From the IMG/VR virus record IMGVR_UViG_3300035199_001163, positions 1 to 43,224 of that record: a stretch of 43,224 nt of DNA. One strand, 5' to 3'. Positions 2,400 through 39,684 of this stretch are shown here, one piece after another (within the stretch, counting starts at the first letter, position 1; each line of letters begins with the position of its first letter). Position numbers and translations under genes: made by a program. The notes under the pieces are model-generated. The model ran no database searches and was not told the origin of the DNA. It saw only the letters and a list, made by a program, of their open reading frames with translations. Origin of the DNA: a virus.

Positions 2400-5300
2400 A
2401 CGGTGATCTCCACAGCCAGCGGGTCGGAGGCATAACCCCTTCCGACCACATCGCTGATCTGGTAGGCGGTGATGGTGATGTCGTGGGTGCCCGGGTCGAA
2501 GTCCTCGGCCATCTGGGCGCTGGTGTAGTTCGCGCTCTCGCTGGTGGCGCTGATCGTCCGCACCACCGTCCCGCTGTCGTCGGCAATATCGAACTCGATC
2601 TGCAGAGAGGATTCGTTCAGAGCTACGTCCGCGCCGTCGCGCCACTCGCCGCCGTAGCGGGTGCGGCGAATGCACTCGATGGCCAGGTCGCCGTCATGCA
2701 CCGCGCGAAGGTGGACCGGGGAATAAGGTTTAAGTGCGACGCCCTCGAGCTCGGCGGGGAGCACGTCCGCGTTCTCCGGAACGTTGCCGTTTGACACGGC
2801 ACGGTAGTAGAGCGTGTTGCCGATATCGTTCTCATCGATCTGCTCGCGGACCACGCGGCTGTCGACCAGCACGAAATCGTCGCCATCCTCGTGCAGGTCC
2901 ATCGCCCATTCGGTGCCCCACCGGCCGCGCAGCAGGTTGCTGACCTCGTATTCACCACCGCCCTGATCGGCCGCGTCGGCGAAATTGAGCAGCTCCCACC
3001 GGCCCGGCTTGCCATAGGCCGCCAGGTTGCCGTTCTGCAGCACATCATCCTCCGGCAGGCCGGCAAGCGTGCCGTTGCGCATGTCGACGGTGATGACCGT
3101 GCCGCGGTCCCACACGTCCGGGTTGCTGGCCGCGACAGCGGTCGAGACCACACCGTTGACCGCGCGCTGACCCAGAAAAGCCAGCGGCTCGTATTGCGAG
3201 GCATTGCGCGATAGCTGGACAGAGGCATAGGACCAGCCGGCATAGAACGCCCGCGCACCCAGCTCCACGCCGGCGCTGTCGTTCTGCCGGCTCCTGGCCG
3301 GCAGCTCCAGCAGCATCAGCTGCGTCGGCCCCGCCAGCGGAACAGCCTGGCCGGCCTCGGGTGTGTCGCCCCCCACGGCCGCAGATTCGTAGATGCTGGC
3401 GTCATCGCGCAGCGCGCGCACATTCAGCACGCCGGGCAGCCGGTAGTTGATCTCGACCACCCGCACCCGGCGCGTCACGCCCGAGATCTGCAGATTCACC
3501 GCATCGCCCGGGTCGAGATAGATGTAACTCAGCGGCAGCGAGAACTGCAGCTCATTGCGGGACCAGTAAGCCTCGTGCGCGATGATGTCCGCGATCTGCG
3601 CGGCCTCGGTGTTGCCCAGGGCGCCGGCATATTCGATATCGGTCGAGGCCTCGGACTGGATTTCGATGCGCTGATAGAGCTGCTGCGCCCGCTCATAGGC
3701 GTTGCCGGCGTCCTTGTAGTGGACGCGCACCGTCTTCGGCAGCTCGCGACCGGCGCCCCGCTCCAGCGCATAGACCGGCGGCCTCTGGCTCCCCTCCGTG
3801 TGCGCCGCCAGATCCTCCTCGGTGATCGTCGCCACGGGCTCCGACCCACGCAGCGGGAACCGCAGCTTGCCGCCGCTCTCCACCGCATCGAAGAAGTGCG
3901 CAGCGCGCAGCGGGTCGATGGCCTGGCGCCCGCTCATCTGGCGGGTGATCGAGTAGCCGTGGATCGTCTTGGTCAGCTCGGTGACGTCGATATCCGACGT
4001 GGCGAGCCCGTTCTCCTCGCAGATCGCGGACACCACCGAGCCGAGGGTGATCTCGCCCGGCCCGCAGACCGGGCATGTGAACAACCCGCCCGACGTGAGC
4101 ATCGCGCCGGGGATCGAAACGGGATGCACGGCTTTGCCGAATCCGGCATCGATCGAGTCATAGGCGAGGACGTCGTAGGTGTCGTCGTCGTGCAGATCAA
4201 GGACGCGATACCGCCCCTGTGTCGTCTGCTCCGCGATCATGGTGCAAGCGCCCTCGCGCGCCATCCAAGGGCGATTTATCGCCGGGATGCCGGTCCAATG
4301 GTGGACCTGGCTGCCGCTCTGCCGATCGTAGGCGTAGATCTGCTTCTCCGTGGTGCCGTCCGGCCCCACCAGCGCGTAGTAGTAGCGCTCGTCGAATGCG
4401 ACGTTCCACACCAGGTCGTCGCCGGTATACGAGTGCGACCGAATCGGTGTGCTCCCCCCGAACGTCACCACGTAGAGGGTGTTCTCGGGGTTCTGCGCTC
4501 CCGATCCCGGGATGAGGTAGATGGTGTTGGGGGCCTCCGGATCCTCGGCCGCGAACGCCACCTGCGTGCTGCCTGCAGGGCCGAGGAATCCGAGTCGCGC
4601 GCCCTCGATCTCCAGCGACTCGCCAACGTTCGGGAAATAATCGAGCCAGGCCAAGTACACCGTGCTGCTGTCGTTGATACCCGGCAGGGTCACGCCGCAC
4701 GAAAAATTGATCCGCCCAATCGCCGCGCCAGGTCGGTTCGTAATCGGCCGCAGGATCGTAACGACGAACGTCCGCGTCTCGCCGGGATCGCAGAACTTCT
4801 CCTCGAACTGGTAGACGTCGTGCCCGCGCGTCAGGACGTTGCCCTCCAGGCCAACCGTGACCGTCTCGACAATGAGCCGCCCCGAGTCCTCCTGCGAGCG
4901 CTGCGCCTCCGACAGCCGAAACACGCTGTCCCGGCTGGTGACCGGGTAGGAGTCCGATAGATCCGGCCAGTCGCTGATCGGGAACTCCAGCACCTCGTCT
5001 TCGCCGGTTCCGACCACTTCGGCCGTGATATTCGGCAGACGGTTGCCGAACTGCGCCAAGGGAAGGTCGCGGAAAACGATGTAGGCGATGCCGCGATAGG
5101 CCGGCGTCAGGCTCTCGCCGACGTCCGCCTGGATCGTCGGATCCGGCTCCTGATCCTCCGTCCCGAGATACAGCGTCACGCCCTCTTTCAACTTCAACGA
5201 CGCGGCCACCTCTTCCAGGCTGCTCTCATCGTCCACGCTGTAGAACAGTTCCGAGTTCAGCCACAGCTTGCGGATGCCGCAGATGGGGCCGCGGCCCAGC

Positions 5301-5623: not shown

Positions 5624-6038
5624 AGGCCACCCCCGGGATGCGGTACGTGCCCACGGTCAGCCGACGCCAGGCGGCGTCGATGCGGTGCTGCACCACGCGC
5701 GGCCGGCGTGGTGCCCTCGCCCATGCATGGATCATGCTTTCGCCGGCGCAAAATGCGACATGCTGTGGCTCCACCGCGCCGCGGATCAGCATCACGCAGC
5801 CCGGCTCCATGCTGCTGCTGCGCTCCAGGCGTGCGTCGAGCACCGCGACCAGCTCGCGGCCGGAGGGCGTGCGGCGGTACTGCGTCCACCGTTCGCCTGC
5901 GGACATGAGGCCCAGCGGCAGGCAGACCACAATTAACAGGCCGATGCAATCCACGCCGTCACGACTGCGCCCCTGGTGCACCCAGGGCACGCCCACCCAT
6001 TCTCGCGCGGTAGCGATCAGCTGCTCCGAGGCCGTCAT
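5616..6038 (-). CDS. NlpC/P60-family tail peptidase
   Basis: A 140-residue cysteine peptidase of the phage NlpC/P60 type. Cys31 lies in RDGVDCIGLL, the general-base His93 in EPQHVAF, and His104 in SMIHAW could be the third polar residue. It would cut peptidoglycan cross-links during DNA entry, or act in tail-tip assembly. I chose the ATG at 6038 because it overlaps the DUF2163 stop and begins just before the family's conserved A-x-x-WVGVPWVHQG. The product is cytosolic with no signal peptide, as expected for a virion-incorporated peptidase. Confidence 0.85.
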   Translation of the reverse strand: MTASEQLIATAREWVGVPWVHQGRSRDGVDCIGLLIVVCLPLGLMSAGERWTQYRRTPSGRELVAVLDARLERSSSMEPGCVMLIRGAVEPQHVAFCAGESMIHAWARAPRRPRVVQHRIDAAWRRLTVGTYRIPGVAYG

Positions 6039-36622: not shown

Positions 36623-36843
36623 GCACGCAGACCTACAGCTGCCCCGAATGCCAGCGGCTGATCGACGTCCGCATCCGCACCGACTGCGGCGTCTACAGCA
36701 CCGAGTTCTTCGACGCCCGCGGCTACCAGCGCGCCACCTGCGACTGCGGCCTGCCGCTCTACGAAGCGCTGGCGCAGCGTCGGCTTCAACCGTTTCCAGC
36801 CACCACCACCGAGCCACCCGACAGGAGCACCCCATGCAGCTGA
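36619..36843 (+). CDS. zinc-ribbon protein, 74 aa, upstream of the DGR
   Basis: CPEC (8-11) and CDCG form a possible zinc site, with FFDARGYQRATC between. It starts inside the ParB-like stop (ATGA) and overlaps the variable protein's start by 10 bases, so it is translated with the DGR target. No recognised family. Confidence 0.6.
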   Translation: MSTQTYSCPECQRLIDVRIRTDCGVYSTEFFDARGYQRATCDCGLPLYEALAQRRLQPFPATTTEPPDRSTPCS

Positions 36844-37373
36844 GCATTTCCATCGACCGCACCGGGCCGTACGGCCTGAGCATCCACATCCCGGACCTCG
36901 CAGAGCTAGCCCCACGCGCAGAGCCGACACCCGACCACCAGACGCCCGACGGGCGCTTCCGCCTCCTCGATAGCCAGGGCCGCACAAGCGACAGCACACC
37001 CGAGCTGGTGCACGACACCACCACCGGCCTCATCTGGACGGCCGCGGAAAGCCTCACCAGCGAGCGCGTCAACCACGCCACCGCCAGCGAGGCCGCAAGC
37101 GCTCTGCGCTACATGGGCGCCGACGACTGGCGCCTGCCGACGATGCACGAGCTGCTGAGCATCGTCGACTACGGCCGTACCGACCCGGCCATCGACACCG
37201 CGGCGTTTCGCTGCCACGCCCGGCCGTACTGGTCGTCGTCGCTCTTCGCGGGCGATTCCGACGGCGCCTGGATCGTCGGCTTCCGCGACGGCTACTCCCT
37301 CATCCACGACCGCGGCGACGACCTCGCCTTTGTGCGTGCGGTGCGCGGCCCGGTGCGCGCGGCCAGTCAGTAA
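36834..37373 (+). CDS. DGR variable protein with DUF1566/Lcl-type C-terminal domain
   Basis: A 179-residue product behind an AGGAG site. The C-terminal domain (about 55-177) has the DUF1566 core: TTGLIWTAA, DDWRLPTMHELLSIVDYGRTDP, and PYWSSSLFAGDSDGAWIVGF ending VRAVRGPV. DUF1566 is one of the known C-type-lectin-like DGR target folds. The last 46 residues are encoded by the variable repeat (37232-37367). No signal peptide, membrane segment or virion-fibre repeats are visible, unlike phage Mtd-type targets. Confidence 0.85.
   Translation: MQLSISIDRTGPYGLSIHIPDLAELAPRAEPTPDHQTPDGRFRLLDSQGRTSDSTPELVHDTTTGLIWTAAESLTSERVNHATASEAASALRYMGADDWRLPTMHELLSIVDYGRTDPAIDTAAFRCHARPYWSSSLFAGDSDGAWIVGFRDGYSLIHDRGDDLAFVRAVRGPVRAASQ
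37232..37367 (+). repeat. DGR variable repeat (VR), 136 bp
   Basis: Aligns without gaps to the template at 37894-38029. There are 14 differences, all opposite TR adenines: 12 lie in 7 AAC codons and one each in a CAC and a GAC codon. No other TR base differs. The first 29 bases and last 42 bases are invariant, and alignment ends at 37368, where VR has C and TR has G (the expected distinction of IMH and IMH*). A 5-bp inverted repeat (ATCAG-CCTTT-CTGAT, 37373-37387) follows VR at the DGR cruciform position. Confidence 0.92.
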
Positions 37374-37403
37374 TCAGCCTTTCTGATCTTCGCCGGAGGC
37401 GCC

Positions 37404-37838
37404 ATGTCCTTTGAACTCCCGCCCATCGTGAAACAGGCCGAACGGCTGATGGTGGAAATCGAGGAAGCGGTCCGCCGCTTCCCGCGCTACCACAAGTACA
37501 CGCACGGCGCGGAGTTGCGGACGGCCGCCATGCGCGTTACCCGCCTCACGCATCGCGCCTGGCGGGACCGGCGCCACCAGGCGCACTGGCTGGACGAGCT
37601 GGTATGGGCGATCGACGAACTCAAGATCACCATGCAGCTCGGCCAGCGCGTGCGCGCCTACGCAAGCCTCCGGCAGTTCGAGCACCTCGCCCGCCAGGCA
37701 CGCCAGCTCGGCAAGCAGGCGGGCGGCTGGCGCAAGCAGCAGCACCCCAAGGGCCAGAATCCAGCGCCGTCCGCGGCGTCGGAGCGCGCCCAGACACTGA
37801 GTACCCGCACCGCCTCCGCGCAGGAGGCCACGCCATGA
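37404..37838 (+). CDS. avd: DGR accessory variability determinant (Avd-like)
   Basis: A 144-residue product. RFPRYHKYTHGAELRTAAMRVTRLTHRAWRD, then DELVWAIDELKITMQLGQRVRAYASLRQFEHL and QLGKQAGGWRKQQ, match the Avd four-helix bundle, which oligomerises and binds the RT and template RNA. A polar C-terminal tail is added. It has GGAGG before its ATG, and its stop overlaps the RT start by 4 bases, which indicates coupled translation. Confidence 0.88.
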   Translation: MSFELPPIVKQAERLMVEIEEAVRRFPRYHKYTHGAELRTAAMRVTRLTHRAWRDRRHQAHWLDELVWAIDELKITMQLGQRVRAYASLRQFEHLARQARQLGKQAGGWRKQQHPKGQNPAPSAASERAQTLSTRTASAQEATP

Positions 37839-39220
37839 CGAAGCCGCGCTACCCCCAGGGCTGCCCGGCCGGGTCCCAAGCGTGCGGGGATGCGTCGTCG
37901 TCGCTCTTCGCGGGCGATTCCGACAACGCCTGGATCGTCAACTTCCACAACGGCAACTCCAACATCCACAACCGCGACAACGACAACGCCTTTGTGCGTG
38001 CGGTGCGCGGCCCGGTGCGCGCGGCCAGTGAGTGTCAGGGTGCCGTCAGCTTCGCCGGCCTGCATCGCGCCTGGCAGGCCGCGCGGCGTCACAAACGGCC
38101 CAGCCGCAACCAGCTCGCCTTCGAGGCCCACTGGGCAGACAACCTGCTGTCCCTGGAAGCCCGCATAGAGGCAGGCAACTGGTCGCCCGCGCCCAGCACC
38201 TGCTTCATCGCCAGCCGCAACAAGGCGCGCGAGATCCACGCGCCGGACTTCGCCGACCGCGTCGTGCACCACTGGCTGGTTCCGCAGCTCGAGCGCATCT
38301 TCGAGCCCGGCTTCATCCACGACAGCTACAGCAACCGCCCCGGCAAGGGCACGCACGCCGCCGTCATCCGCCTGCAGCGCTTCGTGCGCCAGGTGCACAG
38401 CGGCCAGGGCGGCGGCTGGTATCTGCAGCTGGACATCGCCAACTTCTTCAACGCCATCCACCGGCCCACCCTCTGGCGCATCCTCAAGCGCCGCATGGCC
38501 GTCCATGGCGTGCCGGGCACCACGCAGCGCGTCGCCCACGCCCTGCTGCGCCGGCCGCCCACCGCCCAGGGCGTGCACTACCGCGCCACCCGCCAGGAGC
38601 GCGCCCAGGTGCCGCCCCACAAGCGCCTGCACAACGCCGGCCGCGGGCGCGGCCTACCCATCGGCAACCTCTCCAGCCAGTTCTTCGCCAACGTCTACCT
38701 CGACCAGCTCGACCAGTTCGTCAAGCACCAGCTGCGCGCCAGGCGCTACATCCGCTACGTCGACGACTTCGTCCTCATCCACCACGACCGCGCCCAGCTG
38801 GAGCAATGGCAGCACGCCATCGAGCACTTCCTGCACACCGAGCTGCGCTTGCGCCTCAAGTCGGAGATCAAGCTGCAGCCGCTGAGCGCCGGCATCGACT
38901 TCCTCGGCTACATCGCCCACCCCACGCACACCCGCGTCCGGCGCCGCGTCATCAGCCACGCCCGTGAAGCCCTGCACCGCATCGAGCGCGACCACTTGCG
39001 CGGCAACCGCCTGCTACTCACCCCCGAGCAGCTCCGCCGCGCCGCGTCCACCTGGAACAGCTACCGCGCCCACTTCCAGCACGCCAACGCCTGCGGCCTC
39101 ACTGACGGCTTCCACCGGCGCCACCCCTGGCTGCACGCCATCACCGCCCGCCGCCGCCTCGACTACCGGCTGGAAGGCCGGCGCATTGCCATTCCTGTAT
39201 CGGAGAAACAAGCTCCATGA
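37835..39220 (+). CDS. DGR reverse transcriptase
   Basis: The ORF gives 461 residues from ATG 37835 (AGGAGG 7 bases upstream). The RT core begins about residue 70, with ARRHKRPSRNQLAFEAHW and DRVVHHWLVPQLERIFEPGFIHDSYSNRPGKGTH. Catalytic Asp200 lies in LDIANFF and the active site is YVDD at 308-311. LPIGNLSSQ (275-282) is the motif typical of DGR and group II-like RTs. Residues 1-66 encode a leader plus TR; no in-frame ATG or GTG just after TR was found, so either the TR peptide is part of the enzyme or a non-standard start is used. Confidence 0.9.
   Translation: MTKPRYPQGCPAGSQACGDASSSLFAGDSDNAWIVNFHNGNSNIHNRDNDNAFVRAVRGPVRAASECQGAVSFAGLHRAWQAARRHKRPSRNQLAFEAHWADNLLSLEARIEAGNWSPAPSTCFIASRNKAREIHAPDFADRVVHHWLVPQLERIFEPGFIHDSYSNRPGKGTHAAVIRLQRFVRQVHSGQGGGWYLQLDIANFFNAIHRPTLWRILKRRMAVHGVPGTTQRVAHALLRRPPTAQGVHYRATRQERAQVPPHKRLHNAGRGRGLPIGNLSSQFFANVYLDQLDQFVKHQLRARRYIRYVDDFVLIHHDRAQLEQWQHAIEHFLHTELRLRLKSEIKLQPLSAGIDFLGYIAHPTHTRVRRRVISHAREALHRIERDHLRGNRLLLTPEQLRRAASTWNSYRAHFQHANACGLTDGFHRRHPWLHAITARRRLDYRLEGRRIAIPVSEKQAP
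37894..38029 (+). repeat. DGR template repeat (TR), 136 bp, inside the RT reading frame
   Basis: The donor for mutagenic homing. It contains 25 adenines, 16 of them in 8 AAC codons; AAC is the codon type that yields many amino acids but no stop after adenine mutation. It is in the same translational phase as VR and also in frame with the RT ORF (RT codons 20-65), so it reads SSSLFAGDSDNAWIVNFHNG there. TR should be transcribed as an RNA copied by RT with Avd. Confidence 0.92.
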
Positions 39221-39684
39221 GCCTCGCCGACCGCCTCATCAAGCGCATCACCCGCCGCCCGCCGGACTTCACCGTCGGCGACCCCGCCGCGCCGTACCTG
39301 CGCCGCTGGTGGGTCATCCCGCGCAACCGCGTCTTCAACGTCTACCTGCACGAATTCCTGCGCGACGACGACGACCGGGCCCTGCACGACCACCCGTGGC
39401 CGTGGCTCAGCATCATGCTGCGCGGCGAGTACATCGAGCACACCATCGCCGCCGGCGGCATCAACCACGCCAAGCGCCACCAGGCCGGCGGCTTCCGCGC
39501 CCACGGCCCGAACTACGCCCACCGCCTGGCACTCGCCGACCACGGCCGGCCCGCATGGACACTGTTCATCACCGGCCCGCGCTTGCGCGAGTGGGGCTTT
39601 CATTGCCCATTCGCCGGCTGGGTGCACTGGCAGAACTTCACGTCCACTGACGGCCGGCAGGTCGGCAAGGGATGCGACCAATGA
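39217..39684 (+). CDS. cupin-like protein coupled to the RT
   Basis: A 155-residue product. The His pairs in ALHDHPWPWLSIMLRG-YIEHT and the following AHGPNYAHRLALAD fit a double-stranded beta-helix (cupin) with a metal site, and CPFAGWVHWQNF ends it. The ATG overlaps the RT stop (ATGA). Such small cupin-like proteins occur elsewhere in phages outside DGRs, so a role in the retroelement is only suggested by coupling. Confidence 0.65.
   Translation: MSLADRLIKRITRRPPDFTVGDPAAPYLRRWWVIPRNRVFNVYLHEFLRDDDDRALHDHPWPWLSIMLRGEYIEHTIAAGGINHAKRHQAGGFRAHGPNYAHRLALADHGRPAWTLFITGPRLREWGFHCPFAGWVHWQNFTSTDGRQVGKGCDQ

Follow-up and report, generated by a model that had tools for sequence, protein, structure and literature searches.

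The reverse transcriptase (RT) of a viral diversity-generating retroelement (DGR), one of a large family in phages, appears to be translated from an ATG at position 37835 straight through the template repeat (TR), with the same RNA acting at one time as message and at another as mutagenesis template and, by inference, never as both at once; we assign this joint reading a probability of about 0.82. As far as sequence evidence alone can establish it, the read-through arrangement is confirmed as real and not a product of chance. With template, RNA scaffold and RT start site lying in one translated stretch, the division of a DGR transcript between enzyme and template becomes directly testable.

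The window, by which we mean the whole stretch of DNA analysed, is a 43224-base virus record (IMGVR_UViG_3300035199_001163) with a GC content of 68%. Judged by its parts it holds a complete DGR, made up of an Lcl_C target with its variable repeat (VR), avd, TR and RT, all on the plus strand; mutagenic retrohoming activity is inferred from these parts. The locus comprises:

36834-37373, plus strand: DGR target gene with an Lcl_C domain (Pfam Lcl_C, 9.8e-26; taken from the ORF list), its C-terminus being VR
37232-37371, plus strand: VR, with 89% identity to TR; of the 15 mismatches, 14 fall on TR adenines
37404-37838, plus strand: avd accessory gene (Pfam bAvd 1.5e-10, over the gathering score; PHROG Avd 4.1e-20)
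37822-37827, plus strand: RT Shine-Dalgarno sequence AGGAGG, 7 nt 5' of the ATG at 37835
37835-39220, plus strand: RT ORF, its ATG overlapping the avd stop codon (ATGA); residues 1-20 are leader, residues ~21-66 are TR-encoded and the core begins at about residue 71
37894-38033, plus strand: TR, paired with VR 37232-37371, the RT frame being in the target's phase
37994-38017, plus strand: in-frame GTG codons at the TR 3' end (37994, 38003 and 38015), alternative start candidates
38045-39220, plus strand: RT core (Pfam RVT_1 3.3e-17; profile match to PDB 8ub7, 5.7e-54)

The window meets the DGR criteria of an A-specific TR/VR pair, a DGR-type RT, Avd, a C-terminal VR and distinct 3' borders of TR and VR. 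Over the first 136 nt of the two repeats there are 14 mismatches, all 14 at TR adenines, which make up 25 of the 136 bases (P ~5e-11); the fifteenth (G38030/C37368) lies at the 3' border. The target's stop codon, TAA, abuts the VR end, and a scan of both strands of the window found no second VR for this TR. The avd product was also matched by NCBIfam DivGenRetAVD (1.4e-14), under the family cut-off. PDB 8ub7, the entry matched by the RT profile, is a reverse transcriptase, which we take to be the BPP-1 enzyme; comparison of the window RT with BPP-1 brt by tblastn gave 30.6%, and the RT also matched PHROG 1423 (1.2e-98).

The ATG at 37835-37837 overlaps the avd stop codon (TGA, 37836-37838), and from it the RT frame runs without a stop across TR to 39220, with TR in the phase of the target. 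An earlier note on this DNA had proposed this start, with its AGGAGG, and a frame crossing TR in the phase of the variable protein; the coordinates were confirmed, and its figure of about 46 TR-encoded RT residues was upheld. It had also stated that no in-frame ATG or GTG follows TR, which held for the interval between the TR end and the RT core of the window, where no TTG occurs either, but the three GTGs within TR had been left out of that account. A CTG at 38060 is in frame as well, inside the RT core. The RT frame of the window is open over 601 codons; because the window is so GC-rich, the open frame is weak evidence by itself, and it is the comparative data that decide.

Relatives were gathered from phages and plasmids, IMG/VR and GTDB genomes; a single-protein scan of viral contigs returned none, and they were found with an alignment query. 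The 174 sequences examined yielded 102 loci (the window included) with an RT at least 50% identical and a TR detectable by A-biased matching, and 81 representatives were left at <90% DNA identity. Three further loci with an RT at least 50% identical (L047, L069 and L085) were excluded from the 102 for want of a detected TR; in all three the RT lies near a contig end. Named hosts of the relatives include Dyella, Rhodanobacter, Stenotrophomonas, Xanthomonas, Lysobacter, Pseudoxanthomonas and Solimonas. In one locus (L011), an Ideonella plasmid, avd and RT are each present twice, in tandem.

We observed the 4-nt overlap of an RT-frame start with the avd stop in 100 of the 102 loci and in 80 of the 81 representatives, the exceptions being L034, which has no overlap, and L077, whose ATGA is out of the RT frame (a possible frameshift, a sequence error or a sign of another start). 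With L077 excluded from the count for that reason, none of 80 representatives has a stop in the RT frame between the RT start and the core, whereas stops break up the two alternative frames in 39 and 75 of them; around 13 of 80 would be expected to be open in the RT frame in shuffled sequences. The gap from TR to the core measures 4-51 nt overall and is a multiple of three in 76 of 81 (these span 9-51 nt). TR lies in the target's phase in 76/81, as assigned from the ORF whose stop directly follows VR together with the phase of the gap; an automatic count based on the longest ORF (phase 0 in 67/81) was set aside. The other five (L027, L050, L088, L089 and L110) have a TR shifted from the target's phase by compensating length changes on both sides of it, and their leader and RT core still share one frame. 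Because these five retain the RT frame, the two constraints can be separated: by this comparison, reading of the RT through TR is kept, and a common phase with the target is usual, not required. The earlier note had held that a start codon downstream of TR, or frameshifts in TR among homologues, would refute its reading. Comparison of TR placement in the related DGRs bore the reading out, with the frame from the avd overlap crossing TR in 80 of 81 representatives; both kinds of refutation were looked for. No ATG, GTG or TTG occurs between TR and core in 56/81. Shifts of TR phase do exist, in the five loci just described, but they are compensated; L077 remains the one ATGA out of frame.

Many members of the clade carry an in-frame GTG or TTG inside TR, which makes internal initiation of the RT there possible. 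It could accordingly be argued that the RT of the window starts at one of its three in-frame GTGs in TR and that the open frame upstream is incidental, all the more since in another DGR clade (RT-15, discussed below) an ATG inside TR seems to serve as the RT start, in three loci with a stop just before it. We regard this as improbable: 7 of the 81 members have no ATG, GTG or TTG in or after TR, the GTGs of the window correspond to the valines of VRAVRGPV in the target, and the conserved ATGA and the frame-keeping indels upstream of TR would be left without a reason. The lack of a canonical start between TR and core in 56 of 81 means that an initiation event later still would need an unusual codon, such as the in-frame CTG 38060. 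That codon, however, cuts into the beginning of the conserved core, and the preference for gaps that are multiples of three suggests that ribosomes cross the gap in the RT frame, leaving a start after TR barely credible. Translation from the upstream ATG through TR is strongly supported by this conservation (in-frame starts, absence of stops, frame-keeping indels and members without any later start); in vivo use of ATG 37835 is our inference, there being no translation data. RT start sites in this group, and TRs taken as intergenic, are possibly misannotated.

The leader also appears to evolve as coding sequence in the RT frame, with a pN/pS of 0.64 compared with 1.12 and 1.17 in the other frames, the RT frame being lowest in 200 of 200 taxon bootstraps. 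The sequence pairs are not independent, and the ratio is not a pure protein signal, because two RNA helices described below (P4 and P6) partly account for the conservation of bases. In the gap after TR, pN/pS in the RT frame was indistinguishable from that in one other frame. AlphaFold2, run with a shallow alignment of 31 sequences, predicted the RT core confidently and residues 1-68 mostly at pLDDT <50; run on the single RT sequence it gave a mean pLDDT of 33.8. Nothing in these models points to a protein function for the N-terminal tail; it looks more like a by-product that is tolerated than like a domain that folds.

The same stretch holds a conserved RNA fold of six helices, P1-P6, the 5' part of which is captured by a covariance model, R1:

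37751-37889, plus strand: structured RNA element (R1, 115.6 bits, the window itself being a member of the model), spanning the 3' coding end of avd and the RT leader
37751-37754/37788-37791, plus strand: P1, within the avd coding sequence, with covariation
37760-37765/37778-37783, plus strand: P2, within the avd coding sequence, with covariation
37793-37798, plus strand: P3 5' strand, GACACT, pairing with 38031-38036 across TR; 99.7% of cells paired, the variable base covarying
37804-37810/37882-37888, plus strand: P4, enclosing the RT Shine-Dalgarno sequence, the start codon and P6; 97.9% of cells paired
37812-37828, plus strand: P5 hairpin (core 37812-37815/37825-37828), supported by covariation and by the single-sequence fold
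37843-37849/37863-37869, plus strand: P6 hairpin, in the RT leader coding sequence; 93.1% of cells paired
38031-38036, plus strand: P3 3' strand, AGTGTC, at the TR 3' border, where the VR counterpart has the target's stop codon

P3 is formed by a GANACT motif at the avd 3' end, which can pair with AGTNTC at the TR 3' border, the N varying in step on the two sides. The variable base was pairable in 75 of 78 representatives, against a mean of 38 after shuffling, and none of 20000 shuffles reached as many; the search pattern found no motif in the remaining 3 of the 81 (L015, L017 and L020). Of the three unpaired cases, two (L038 and L058) proved to be mis-picked motifs and one (L019) a true mismatch; the motif of L048 was mis-picked too, but had been tallied as pairable.

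For the fold as a whole, the alignment list took in 77 of the 81 representatives (L061, L068, L071 and L077 omitted), 60 of which were aligned (A2) and 45 of which entered the model alignment (A3). RNAalifold on the 60 representatives of A2 gave the six helices, with 33 of 37 pairs retained. Across them 94.8% of 1980 cells are paired and 28 of the 33 pairs show changes on both sides (all seven in P4), a result that none of 500 shuffles matched; the covariation score was 0.477 compared with 0.149 for shuffled alignments. Sliding the structure by 1-3 columns lowered pairing to 27-50%. The structure was derived from the same alignment that was used for counting, which favours it over its slid versions; the compensatory changes are not explained by this origin. 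In the window P5 extends to GCCTCC/GGAGGC and occupies most of the RT Shine-Dalgarno sequence. Much of the P1-P6 arrangement is present in the minimum-energy fold of 37745-37893. The single-sequence fold of the window was not more stable than shuffled sequences (z +0.30 and -0.59).

With P4, P5 and P6 extending over a large part of both leader and start region, the upstream ATG and its open frame might be thought conserved merely as parts of this fold, the leader itself being untranslated. A requirement of that kind is hard to reconcile with zero stops in 80 loci, with frame-keeping indels in leader, TR and gap alike, with an RT frame left intact in the five shifted TRs and with a pN/pS lowest in the RT frame, and we hold it to be very improbable. 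The reading that we prefer has the leader both translated and folded.

R1, built on the 5' part of the fold from 45 sequences, was run on 89 sources. It matched all 36 of the clade members supplied, 35 of which were not in the model, and weaker matches were obtained in L118, L119, L121-L124, L127, L128, L131 and L132, most of them ending a few bases from TR. When R1 alone was used to search 398 genomes of one order, it returned nine matches, each with the in-frame ATG overlap; seven were known loci and two were new. It had no match in the RT-15 loci and BPP-1 sequence supplied, and no Rfam family matched the fold in the window (36800-39300) or in six relatives. P1-P6 would represent a new class of structured RNA, usable for finding DGRs. 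A second match of R1 in the window (5834-5942) is weak (17.6 bits, E 0.064) and probably due to chance. At L132:3829-3993, tandem 15-nt units (GTCAATTTCAACAAT) occupy a TR-like stretch beside the weak R1 match.

The 3' borders of the repeats, known as IMH at VR and IMH* at TR, differ in a consistent manner. Directly after VR, 68 of 81 representatives have CAG plus a stop codon, whereas after TR most have GAGTNTC; AGTNTC is found near the TR end in 76/81 and near the VR end in 3/81. The P3 half-site therefore sits at the position of the target's stop codon. By comparison of the two borders, a single exchange does away with the stop, allowing the RT frame to go on, and at the same time provides the partner for P3. 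This partner may also mark the template as distinct from the target mRNA, which is inference on our part.

On the reading that we favour, RT translation would begin at ATG 37835 by coupling to the avd end and run across leader and TR into the core, so that the enzyme carries its first ~70 residues, ~46 of them TR-encoded, as a fused tail. This stretch of RNA would also be the mutagenesis template, with P1, P2 and P4-P6 as its 5' scaffold within coding sequence. Ribosomes finishing avd would open P1-P5 and start the RT; RNA free of ribosomes would fold, P3 linking the 5' scaffold to the TR 3' border, at which RT-Avd would begin cDNA synthesis. As P5 hides the RT Shine-Dalgarno sequence and P4 encloses the start codon, each molecule would be either an RT message or a template for RT-Avd, not both at once. 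Both the binding of RT-Avd to the fold and the mutual exclusion of the two states are inferred. The suggestion of the earlier note that translation could compete with TR copying gains from the conserved fold at the RT start site; competition itself has not been demonstrated. A further step, which we put forward tentatively and with rather more doubt than confidence, would be a self-limiting switch, in which RT-Avd binds P1-P6 on its own mRNA, shuts the start site and turns message into template, ribosomes finishing avd reverse the change, and the phase of TR ties the supply of RT to a template without stops or frameshifts. The group II intron Ll.LtrB offers a likeness in mechanism only: its protein LtrA binds DIVa, which contains LtrA's own ribosome-binding site, and an RT's RNA binding site thereby overlaps its own translation start. 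Unlike the window element, it is a splicing intron without a template repeat.

Among known DGRs, the well-studied one of Bordetella phage BPP-1 (mtd-VR-avd-TR-brt), whose template RNA is situated between avd and brt, has the same parts in the same order, including a DGR-type RT, Avd and A-specific TR/VR differences. It differs, however, in having TR (end 2320) and brt (start 2465) separated by a spacer of 144 nt that contains the Phage_DGR RNA (RF03022), whereas the window clade has 4-51 nt between TR and RT core, its structured RNA 5' of TR and TR inside the RT ORF. RF03022 was found in BPP-1 and had no match in the window or in six relatives. According to PMC12875486, the BPP-1 3' spacer serves to recruit bRT-Avd and to prime synthesis, which is stopped by the 3' end of avd. 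The window lacks a 3' spacer of the BPP-1 type, and for that reason we propose that the 5' element would take over this role. Closer in layout is the RT-15 RNA clade (Rfam RF03018; phPA-G, Magia, Cruim01, QDWS, LPPA56 and SC_8_H2H8_2017, the presence of RF03018 having been tested on six loci), which also has a structured RNA directly 5' of TR and a TR near the RT core; unlike in the window, its RT and target are read in different phases, and RT initiation apparently occurs at an ATG inside TR. RF03018 gave no match in the window (36800-39300; threshold E 5) or in six relatives (threshold E 0.1).

Overlap of TR with annotated RT ORFs was described in 2012 as architecture group 3 of DiGReF (PMC3521204), which the window fits in that its TR overlaps the RT ORF end; the account of the group given there includes no check of reading frame, start codon or RNA structure. 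The overlap is thus already known, and the covarying fold P1-P6, which we observed here, is new as far as the available portions of the literature allow it to be judged. Neither translation through TR nor an RNA of the P1-P6 type is discussed in the literature searched, mostly open papers and in part only partially available (PMC6642488, PMC8144416, PMC12875486, PMC4372165, PMC3091744, PMC3594303 and PMC10747581; PMC10743442 contains no relevant terms); Wu et al. (2018, NAR), outside this scope, may describe the architecture.

The read-through arrangement forms one clade of 84 rows (82 so labelled), with a support of 100, in a tree built from 152 RT cores. The labels of some distant loci (for example, L132, L134 and L159) are unreliable, the automatic TR search having failed there or chosen other repeats. 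In the RT-15 clade (L003, L004, L006-L008 and L147-L173), 23 of the 28 loci examined have an in-frame ATG inside TR, often within AATGGC, and three (L006, L161 and L163) have a stop in TR just upstream of it, so that initiation is possible there only inside TR or shortly after. RT initiation in this clade apparently takes place within TR itself.

In the nearest relatives of the read-through clade (L118 and L123), TR is contained in a leader ORF of its own (L118:3681-3956; L123:132-398), which opens at the avd stop (ATGA) and closes overlapping the RT start (ATGGTGA and GTGA, respectively); in L123 the overlap was judged from sequence, avd not having been traced there. TR is in a target-like phase in L118 and in another phase in L123. 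Going by these ORFs alone, a coupled chain from avd through the TR leader to the RT seems to extend the coupling of TR translation to RT beyond the fused arrangement. That TR is translated even where it is not fused, and that it keeps the target's phase in 76 of 81 clade members, leaves room for a different selective cause: translation through TR would be real, but kept as protection against Rho-dependent termination between avd and RT, or as a check on the frame of TR, a nonsense or frameshift mutation in which would cost the RT. A strict frame check is not required, given that five clade members and L123 read TR outside the target's phase, and the fold at the RT start site points to regulation at the RNA level. 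We think selection of this other kind unlikely, without dismissing it; both ideas are compatible with our favoured reading, in which one RNA is by turns message and template.

Between TR and RT in L118 (~3890-3950), we noticed by eye an insertion-like stretch with an inverted repeat (CCCCCTTTGATAAGGGGGG), which may have split a formerly fused frame.
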